This document shows positions 31,282 through 34,586 of a stretch of 58,715 bases of DNA, piece after piece. A program made the translations under genes and the position numbers. Position 1 is the stretch's first letter; each line of letters opens with the position of its first letter. Source of the stretch: Candidatus Epulonipiscium sp. (GTDB lineage: Bacteria > Bacillota > Clostridia > Lachnospirales > Defluviitaleaceae). The stretch is from positions 1 to 58,715 of the forward strand of contig JAAYQR010000020.1 of the NCBI GenBank assembly GCA_012519205.1, in the 5' to 3' direction. Below the pieces are notes generated by a model that searched no databases, was not told where the DNA came from, and saw only the letters and a list, made by a program, of their open reading frames with translations.

Positions 31282-32082
31282 ATGAAGAAAATAGGGTTTA
31301 TAGGAGCCGGAAACATGGGATATGCCATGATGAAGGGATTACTTAATTATAAAGGCAATGAAAACATTATTTTTACCGATGTATGCACCAAAAGGATTCA
31401 ATTGGTAAAGGAGAACTTACATATTGAATCCGTTACCAACAATAAGGAATTGATAGAAAAAACAAAATACATTGTATTAGCTATTAAACCCCAGTATTAT
31501 TCTTCTGTGCTTAAGGAAATCAAAGGGATCCTTACAAGTAATCATGTAGTAATAAGTATAGCACCGGGAATAACCATAGACTACATAAAATCACAATTAA
31601 AAGAAGATATAAGAGTTGTCCGTGCTATGCCCAATACCCCGGCACTTATCGGCGAAGGAATGAGTGTTATAAGTTTTTCCAAAGATTTATTTGAAGATAA
31701 AGAAAGAAATGAGGTTCATAGAGTATTTTCCACTTTTGGAAAAGTAGAAGAAATAGAAGAAAGTTTAATGGATGCGGTGGTGCCCATATCGGGAAGTTCT
31801 CCAGCCTATGTTTATATGATGATTGAAGCTATGGCTGACGGTGGGGTGTTAGCCGGCCTACCAAGAGAGCTTTCTTATAAATTAGCAGCACAAACAGTAA
31901 TGGGTTCAGCAAAAATGATACTAGAAACCAAGGCGCATCCGGGGGAACTTAAGGATGCCGTTTGCTCCCCAGGAGGAACTACAATAGAAGCTGTTGCAAC
32001 TTTGGAAAAGCTTGGATTTAGGAGCAGTATTATAGAAGCTATGAAAGAATGTATGAGAAAGACAAAATCTATGAGAAAATAA
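31282..32082 (+). CDS. proC: Pyrroline-5-carboxylate reductase
   Basis: About 266 residues. The N-terminal dinucleotide-binding motif GFIGAGNMG is followed by AIKPQYY, RAMPNTPALIGEG, and the dimerisation/active-site region ISGSSPAYVYMMIEAMADGGVLAGL with LKDAVCSPGGTT. It reduces pyrroline-5-carboxylate to proline with NAD(P)H. GGGAGG precedes ATG 31282. rnhA follows 10 bases later. No proA/proB are present here. Confidence 0.96.
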   Translation: MKKIGFIGAGNMGYAMMKGLLNYKGNENIIFTDVCTKRIQLVKENLHIESVTNNKELIEKTKYIVLAIKPQYYSSVLKEIKGILTSNHVVISIAPGITIDYIKSQLKEDIRVVRAMPNTPALIGEGMSVISFSKDLFEDKERNEVHRVFSTFGKVEEIEESLMDAVVPISGSSPAYVYMMIEAMADGGVLAGLPRELSYKLAAQTVMGSAKMILETKAHPGELKDAVCSPGGTTIEAVATLEKLGFRSSIIEAMKECMRKTKSMRK

Positions 32083-32092
32083 GGAGGAATAT

Positions 32093-32677
32093 ATGGACTG
32101 GCTTGAAGTATATACGGATGGTGCCTGTACCAATAATCAAGGGGAAGGATTACAGCCCGGGGGGTGGGCCGCAGTTTTTATAGACGGTCCTTCTTTATCA
32201 GGAGGAGAAAATAAAACTACAAATAACAGAATGGAAATGAAAGCAGTGATTGAGGCCCTAAAAAATACTCCTCCAAATAGCAATATTAGAATCTATTCCG
32301 ACTCCGCATATGTTATTAACTGCTTTAAACAAAATTGGATTGGACGCTGGGAAAAAAATGGATGGATTACTTCTGCAAAAAAACCCGTAGAGAATAAAGA
32401 ATTATGGATGGAAATGAGGAATCTTGAAAGGGAAAGAAATGTAGAATGGGTTAAGGTAAAGGGACACTCGGGAAATAAGTGGAATGAAAAAGTGGATAAA
32501 TTGGCCGTAGAAGCGATCCCAAACAATAAGAATGAAAATGTAGAAAAAACAACAACACTCCATTTAAGTAGTAGGGAGAAAAATGATTTAATCAAATTAT
32601 TAGAAAGCAACGAAGAAACTATTAGACCTTCGATTAAAAGCATATTGTATAAATTAAAAGGCGATTGTTTGGAATAA
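32093..32677 (+). CDS. rnhA: Ribonuclease HI with C-terminal extension
   Basis: About 194 residues. The four catalytic acids are in place: D9 (YTDGAC), E48 (NRMEMKAVIEAL), D70 (IYSDSAYV) and D135 (NEKVDKLA), with H125 in KVKGHSG. It degrades RNA in RNA-DNA hybrids. A tail of about 50 residues beyond the normal 145-155 contains LSSREKNDLIKLLE, of unknown role. AAGGAGG is just before ATG 32093. Confidence 0.94.
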   Translation: MDWLEVYTDGACTNNQGEGLQPGGWAAVFIDGPSLSGGENKTTNNRMEMKAVIEALKNTPPNSNIRIYSDSAYVINCFKQNWIGRWEKNGWITSAKKPVENKELWMEMRNLERERNVEWVKVKGHSGNKWNEKVDKLAVEAIPNNKNENVEKTTTLHLSSREKNDLIKLLESNEETIRPSIKSILYKLKGDCLE

Positions 32678-32732: not shown

Positions 32733-33793
32733 ATGGTCCACTTAAAAGAGGGAATAGTAAATAGAATTATTAGAAGCCATAAGGATATGATTGAAGTCTC
32801 TGTATATGTGGATGGCACAGAGCATAAAGCCATTGCATACCCATATATTACAGGAAATGTGTCTATAGGAGATAGAGTAGGGTTAAACACAACAGCAGTG
32901 GATTTGAATCTTGGAACCGGCGGATATCATTTTGTACTTTTTAATAAAACTATAAATACCTTAAAAACCGGTCCGTTGGGGCATATTATGAAATTAAAAT
33001 ATACCCCTATTCAAATAAAATGCCATACCATTGAAGAACAATATCCAGATAGTATTAATTCTTTTAAATCCTTAGATGGAATGCCAATAGTAACAGGAAG
33101 CATTCATAGTATGCTTCCACCAGTGGTAGCAGCAGCAAAATCTGTAAATCCAAACATAAAAATAGCGTATATAATGACTGATGGAGGAGCACTACCTATT
33201 AGTTTTAGCAATACAGTCCGTATGCTTAAAGAAAAAAACTTATAGATTGCACAATTACCTGTGGGAATGCCTTTGGAGGAGATTTAGAAACAGTAAATTT
33301 ATATACGGCATTAATTGCTGCAAAGTTAATAAGAAAATGTAATGGGGCTGTAATCATAATGGGACCAGGTCATGTGGGTACCCATACAAAACTAGGTTTT
33401 ACCGGGGTAGAGCTTGCTAATAATGCTCATACTATCTATTCCATGGGAGGAACCCCTATATGCATACCAAGGGTTAGTTTTAGTGAAAAAAGAAATAGGC
33501 ACTATGGTATTAGTCATCATTTCCTAACTACCATGGGTCAGCATTGTTTGATACCATGCCATATGGCTTTTGCTAATTATGCCTATAATGAAAAAGAATA
33601 TATTATGGGTCAATATGAAAAATACAATTTGGGCAAAAAGCATATTATTCATTTTGTAGAAGAAGACACAATCTCTGTAATGGAAAGATATGATTTATCC
33701 ATTAAGACCATGGGCAGAACCATAAGAGAAGATCCTGAGTTTTTTAGGACTGCTGGAGCCTGTGGAATGTTAATGACTGGATTTCTTGTTTAA
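32733..33793 (+). pseudogene. DUF3866 family protein, split by a -1 frameshift
   Basis: Two frames together encode one DUF3866-like protein. The first (ATG 32733, AGAGGAG site) runs to TAG 33243-33245; the sequence continues in the -1 frame from 33242 (IDCTITCGNAFGGDLETVN…) to TAA at 33791-33793, including a stretch before the ATG at 33359 that makes an independent second gene unlikely. The join is a run of seven A's at 33232-33238 followed by C, which forms A-AAA-AAC in the zero frame, a known slippery heptamer. Either one A has been lost (mutation or sequencing error) or -1 frameshifting produces the full protein of about 353 residues. Function of DUF3866 is unknown. Confidence 0.8.
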
Positions 33794-33922
33794 GGGTCTT
33801 TGTTTATCATCAATATATTCTTGAATTGTTTTATATTGAAGTTCTAACTCTGTCAAATAGGAAATGATTTCATCAATTTTTCCAACACATGTAAATTGAT
33901 TCTTAAAAACAATAGCCTTCAA
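33770..33922 (-). CDS. Small hypothetical protein (50 aa)
   Basis: TTG 33922 follows a good GAGGTGA site and opens a 50-codon frame (MKAIVFKNQFTCVGKIDEII… ending LNKKSSH), predicted as a short strand plus an acidic helix. It overlaps the 3' end of the convergent DUF3866 gene by 24 bases. I do not recognise it; the ribosome site and protein-like composition are the evidence. Confidence 0.55.
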   Translation of the reverse strand: MKAIVFKNQFTCVGKIDEIISYLTELELQYKTIQEYIDDKQRPLNKKSSH

Positions 33923-34046
33923 GCAATCACCTCATTATAAAATATAGATAGAGCTAGGTCCTATAAAAAGGGAACCATGTTTGTAGCAAGATTTATATAT
34001 AGTTTATTCCTAAAAGGACAAGTTTATGAATGGAAGGAGAATAAAA

Positions 34047-34586
34047 ATGGATTTTGAACATGAAACCATTAATAGAAAAGAAATATACAAAGGAAAAATC
34101 ATATCATTAGTACAAGACATTATTAGCCTACCTAATGGAAAAACAGCGAAAAGAGATGTGGTGCTTCATAACGGGGCAGCAGCTATAGTGCCTATGGATG
34201 AAAGTGGAAACATTTTATTTGTTCGTCAATATAGGCAACCAGTAGGGGAAGAAATATTAGAAATTCCCGCAGGTACTTTAGAGGAGGGGGAGGAGCCTTT
34301 AGAATGTGCCAAAAGGGAATTGGAAGAAGAAACAGGGTACAAGGCAAATGAGTTCACCCACATTTGTTCGATGTATACCGCAGTAGGTTTCTGCACCGAA
34401 ATAATACATATTTATCTAGGGACCGATTTGATTATGGGGAAACAAAACCTTGATGAGGACGAGTTCGTTAATGTTGAGAAATATCCATTTAATGAGGCGA
34501 TGAAAATGATATTTGATGGTAGGATAAAAGATAGTAAAACCATATCGGGTATATTAGGGGCCAATCATATAATGAACAGTAAATAA
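34047..34586 (+). CDS. nudF: ADP-ribose pyrophosphatase (Nudix)
   Basis: About 179 residues. The Nudix box is complete: G-TLEEG-E-x7-RELEEETGY around residues 80-102, preceded by the ADP-ribose-type N-terminal dimer strand. It hydrolyses ADP-ribose to AMP and ribose-5-phosphate. ATG 34047 is 7 bases after AAGGAG; the ATG at 34026 overlaps the site region. nudF-spoIIM-xerD is also the Bacillus order, supporting the assignment. Confidence 0.92.
   Translation: MDFEHETINRKEIYKGKIISLVQDIISLPNGKTAKRDVVLHNGAAAIVPMDESGNILFVRQYRQPVGEEILEIPAGTLEEGEEPLECAKRELEEETGYKANEFTHICSMYTAVGFCTEIIHIYLGTDLIMGKQNLDEDEFVNVEKYPFNEAMKMIFDGRIKDSKTISGILGANHIMNSK

Follow-up and report, generated by a model that had tools for sequence, protein, structure and literature searches.

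A frame break at a seven-A run splits the DUF3866 gene in one Candidatus Epulonipiscium assembly, most likely through a miscounted or mutated run

The DUF3866 gene in the assembly of Candidatus Epulonipiscium sp. (GCA_012519205.1) is split by a frame break at a run of seven A residues. The gene lies on contig JAAYQR010000020.1, and the whole stretch of 58,715 nucleotides that we analysed is referred to below as the window. The break is most likely due to an A-run that was miscounted or has mutated in one genome, and not to deliberate recoding. We infer that sequencing rather than mutation is the cause: the break is probably a homopolymer-length error of the assembly, with an intact gene in the cell. 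In such an event, undercalling of the A homopolymer during sequencing or consensus building would leave the run one nucleotide short and thereby break the frame, and the cell would carry and express the intact, conserved DUF3866 gene.

The zero-frame codons at positions 33231-33245 read directly as GAA AAA AAC TTA TAG. The seven A residues (33232-33238) are followed by a C, and the heptamer AAAAAAC at 33233-33239 has the X_XXY_YYZ register, that is, A_AAA_AAC in the slippery frame of the zero-frame codons. The zero frame encodes 170 amino acids and stops at a TAG (33243-33245) one codon past the heptamer. The -1 frame is open for 187 codons up to a stop that ends at 33793, and positions 33230-33245 are the sole stretch open in both frames (Table 1). 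The two pieces match contiguous portions of the Pfam family PF12982, and the profile is therefore covered with no residue missing. A previous sequence-only reading had described both the slippery register ahead of the TAG and the continuation of the protein in the -1 frame without loss of a residue, and the codons and the profile matches bear it out on both points. Its placement of the site is also correct, except that the start it listed, 33229, is two bases ahead of the GAA codon. Separate translation of the second piece is unlikely because the first ATG, GTG or TTG in the -1 frame is at 33359, approximately 40 codons in, and a start there would exclude the GNAFGGD motif.

Table 1. Features of the DUF3866 locus in the window and homopolymer-associated frame breaks in the sampled part of the same genome
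Feature	Location	Strand	Run or evidence
Upstream neighbour, presumably proC-like	window 31282..32082	+	collinear matches 67-72% in 11/11 loci compared
Ribonuclease HI, upstream neighbour	window 32093..32677	+	PF00075, E 4.1e-39
N-terminal DUF3866 piece, zero frame, ends TAG	window 32733..33245	+	PF12982 positions 1-141, E 1e-50, 173.2 bits (cut-off 25); 64-66% identity to seven same-family proteins
Seven A + C, in-register A_AAA_AAC, frame-break site	window 33232..33239	+	sequence; dual-frame open stretch
C-terminal DUF3866 piece, -1 frame, without ATG/GTG/TTG before 33359	window 33230..33793	+	PF12982 positions 142-318 of 318, E 1.8e-57, 195.4 bits (cut-off 25); 34/34 near-invariant columns
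Downstream neighbour, presumably a NUDIX-type hydrolase	window 34026..34586	+	collinear matches 65-73% in 10/11 loci compared
Break in DUF3866 gene	window 33232-33238		A7
Break in SDR oxidoreductase	L114 17994-18000		G7
Break in calcium-transporting P-type ATPase	L115 ~4771		beside A6
Break in SleB/LysM cell-wall hydrolase	L118 ~5318		G8
Break in SufS-like cysteine desulfurase	L125 ~15394		A7
Break in DUF6320-like protein	L210 ~1798		T7; Pfam match just under cut-off
Break in UvrD-type helicase	L213 ~1619		A8

The seven other genomes of the same family all have a single open frame across the site. DUF3866 was found in 8 of the 57 relative genomes searched, our own included, and all eight family genomes searched carry the gene; the 49 genomes from other families in this sample lack it. 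In a wider sample of the class, 56 of 391 genomes contain DUF3866, and all 55 others are open across the site. The gene is one open frame in 53 of these 55. In the other two (G220 and G326) it is distributed over two contigs and broken elsewhere, near profile positions 206-253, and the larger pieces cross positions 141-142 without a stop. Among named genomes, for which the nearest matches are Ca. Epulonipiscium MAGs and Defluviitalea phaphyphila, all 73 returned loci have an open frame that extends at least 155 codons upstream from the corresponding position. Thus none of the 7 same-family genomes, 55 class genomes and 73 named loci carries the split; there is overlap among the three sets (L004 and L044, for example, give identical matches). 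The break is seen in one genome, and those compared include no second genome of the same genus. A viral origin was also considered and rejected: 111 stretches of viral contigs matched a peptide pattern, and none encodes a relative.

These comparisons bear directly on programmed -1 ribosomal frameshifting that would give two DUF3866 products, one short and one long, which the sequence-only reading had put forward as the more exciting explanation. That reading had asked whether relatives keep the split and had named an uninterrupted frame in relatives as evidence against programming; an uninterrupted frame is what we found. As a conserved mechanism, programmed frameshifting is already refuted by the sequence comparison, because no examined relative is split. 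We also consider programmed frameshifting in this genome extremely improbable. The A_AAA_AAC register is perfect, the stop follows one codon on, and the -1 frame continues the PF12982 domain exactly; however, folding without pseudoknots revealed no RNA structure above shuffles either downstream of the site (33240-33330, z -0.33) or around it (33200-33300, z +0.94), and no Shine-Dalgarno-like element was seen just upstream upon inspection by eye. Moreover, the short product would stop within the Pfam domain, and six similar breaks at homopolymers are present in unrelated conserved genes of the same genome. The arrangement shares with the A_AAA_AAN frameshifting of dnaX and IS elements an in-register heptamer, a stop soon after it, and a -1 frame that continues the product. 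In contrast to those systems, neither the split nor the heptamer is conserved here, no stimulator was found, and a single domain is interrupted by the split. Nor was the DUF3866 site seen in a mobile element, unlike the sites of IS elements.

The A_AAA_AAC motif itself is ordinary and hardly special in the window. AAAAAAC occurs 44 times compared to 31.1 +/- 6.0 in shuffles, 2 of 100 of which reach 44, and it is in the slippery register 11 times in the 17,661 codons of window ORFs of at least 100 codons. The heptamer is most likely a by-product of a shortened A-run in a lysine-rich codon stretch, since an A-run that begins within GAA, lacks one nucleotide and has a C after it yields A_AAA_AAC in the broken frame without selection. 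Some relatives (e.g. L077, L085 and L104) carry an in-frame run of eight A residues at the same place and are still open, and a long A-run is therefore a natural feature of this stretch. In L125, another break of the same genome lies in a similar context at A_AAA_AAG, which resembles a slippery site. These cases call for caution, as slippery heptamers arise spontaneously at any A-run that lacks one nucleotide, and examining the remainder of the genome soon separates such cases from conserved recoding.

Our survey covered 827,173 of 2,128,862 bases of the genome (39%), including the window, which we compared with ORFs of relatives, among them samples of G003 (800 kb) and G006 (400 kb). Detection of a break requires relatives with at least 30% identity, and the homology-covered sequence seen amounts to 277,090 bases. 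We identified seven frame breaks against 280 homology-tested ORFs, a count that includes halves of broken genes of at least 120 codons, compared to one raw break against 241 ORFs in G003 and one against 140 ORFs in G006. With two control genomes the difference is of modest significance (Fisher p 0.012 when one control break is counted, 0.041 when both raw control hits are). Each of the seven breaks is in contact with a homopolymer of at least six bases, for which the random-interval chance is 0.05-0.23 each at these lengths (product 2.5e-8). In six of the seven the sequence is one nucleotide short, and in L118 it is one nucleotide long. The names given to the broken genes derive from family matches of intact relatives, and the breaks in L114 and L125 rest on about 32-38% identity. 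In L115, the interval open in both frames contains only four A residues and abuts a six-A run.

Several further candidates were rejected. We regarded the G003 hit (L140) as spurious, since no Pfam or NCBIfam family matches its reference ORF. Shadow ORFs were stripped from the references before the final count, upon which L198 and L199 of the same genome disappeared, as did L137 of G003 and L179 of G006. Two others (L126 near 13168 and L128 near 3965) were dropped when their translations were judged to be adjacent genes. The hit in G006 lies in a Ger(x)C-family spore germination gene (L188 4244-5280, minus strand), which has a probable break beside a six-A run. In addition, runs of seven G or C residues are more frequent in our genome, at 5.9 per 100 kb versus 0.9 and 0.7 in G003 and G006, and runs of four are also approximately twice as frequent as in these two genomes of similar G+C content.

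The second half of the DUF3866 gene bears no sign of decay. It keeps all 34 of its near-invariant columns (identity of 95% or more across 37 relatives), and the first half likewise retains all 30 of its own. The identity of the second half to same-family proteins is 65-69% versus 64-66% for the first half. No second lesion was found in either piece. This pattern fits either a gene that is intact in the cell or a break so recent that decay has yet to appear. Together, the further homopolymer breaks, the unsplit relatives and the undecayed second half count for a homopolymer error of the assembly, and the loss of one A from the run, which the sequence-only reading had offered as the simplest explanation, fits all of the evidence. 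One report describes high indel rates in homopolymers for pyrosequencing (PMC3115854), and according to the GeneTack work, singleton frameshifts confirmed by BLASTp are expected to be sequencing errors (PMC3711429). The DUF3866 break shares with that class its occurrence in one genome, its place at a homopolymer, and a frameshift that both BLAST and Pfam confirm against intact homologs, and we found nothing that distinguishes it. Our genome also has more breaks than the control relatives.

The runner-up is a true and very recent one-nucleotide indel in the A-run that inactivated DUF3866 in this strain or population and left a pseudogene of recent origin; the lineage may be one in which slippage at homopolymers is increased. 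Counting against a sequencing error, A-runs are also hot spots of mutation, and all seven breaks are at homopolymers, where replication slips as well. The GerXC-like break of G006 likewise counts against it, since real indels or errors therefore occur beyond our genome. The calcium ATPase, SDR and SleB-like hydrolase with broken frames may not be required, in keeping with real mutation, and DUF3866 is patchy (56 of 391 class genomes and none of the 49 from other families), so the gene can be lost. However, all eight family genomes searched have kept it, and the near-invariant positions are all retained with no second lesion. In addition, the C. difficile relative CDR20291_1057 is tabled as essential by Tn-seq and was left untargeted by CRISPRi (PMC12548448). 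We regard a recent inactivating indel as the less likely explanation, and favor a homopolymer error of the assembly.

If the indel were real, transcriptional slippage on the A-run, or -1 frameshifting at A_AAA_AAC that is low-level and not programmed, might restore part of the product, although this presupposes the real indel and we consider it quite improbable. The heptamer has the register that such shifting needs. PMC4066793 describes an IS cluster, A_AAA_AAC_1, with proven frameshifting and no established stimulator, so low-level shifting could occur here. However, the heptamers reported there as most efficient in E. coli (C_CCA_AAG, G_GGA_AAG and A_AAA_AAG) end in AAG and not in AAC, and the folding around our site (z -0.33 and +0.94) offers no structure to assist. 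The DUF3866 gene also resembles the six split genes whose slippage products match single-ORF homologs, as described in PMC1088944, in having an A-run at the break and single-ORF homologs elsewhere. In contrast to that survey, where runs have nine bases, the run here has seven A residues, and the DUF3866 split is not conserved. A broader possibility is that the seven-A run is real and that the lineage makes full proteins from many homopolymer breaks through slippage of RNA polymerase or ribosome, which we deem very improbable. Production of full proteins by slippage has been proposed for AT-rich endosymbionts.

The neighbourhood of the gene is kept. As far as the ends of related loci reach, they retain the order proC-like, RNase HI, DUF3866, NUDIX-like, SpoIIM-like, XerD-like, DeoB-like, Pdp-like and DacF-like, where all names except RNase HI and DUF3866 are those we take the genes to have. 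An exception is the Defluviitalea phaphyphila locus (L004/L044), in which no RNase HI match was found. DUF3866 has an unknown function and a patchy distribution, and it can be essential, judging from the C. difficile entry in PMC12548448. Should the gene be important in this organism as well, a real loss of function would be costly, and if recoding were true, one gene with a C. difficile relative classed as essential would give two products. With at least seven genes in the assembly broken in this manner, annotation as pseudogenes is doubtful without reads.

On the minus strand at window positions 33770-33922 we observed a putative small-protein ORF of 50 codons with a TTG start behind GAGGTGATT. 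It is convergent with DUF3866 and overlaps its 3' end by 24 bases. Other genomes of the family have the ORF at the equivalent position with 57-74% identity, and it is weakly conserved beyond the family (e.g. L067, L036 and L057).
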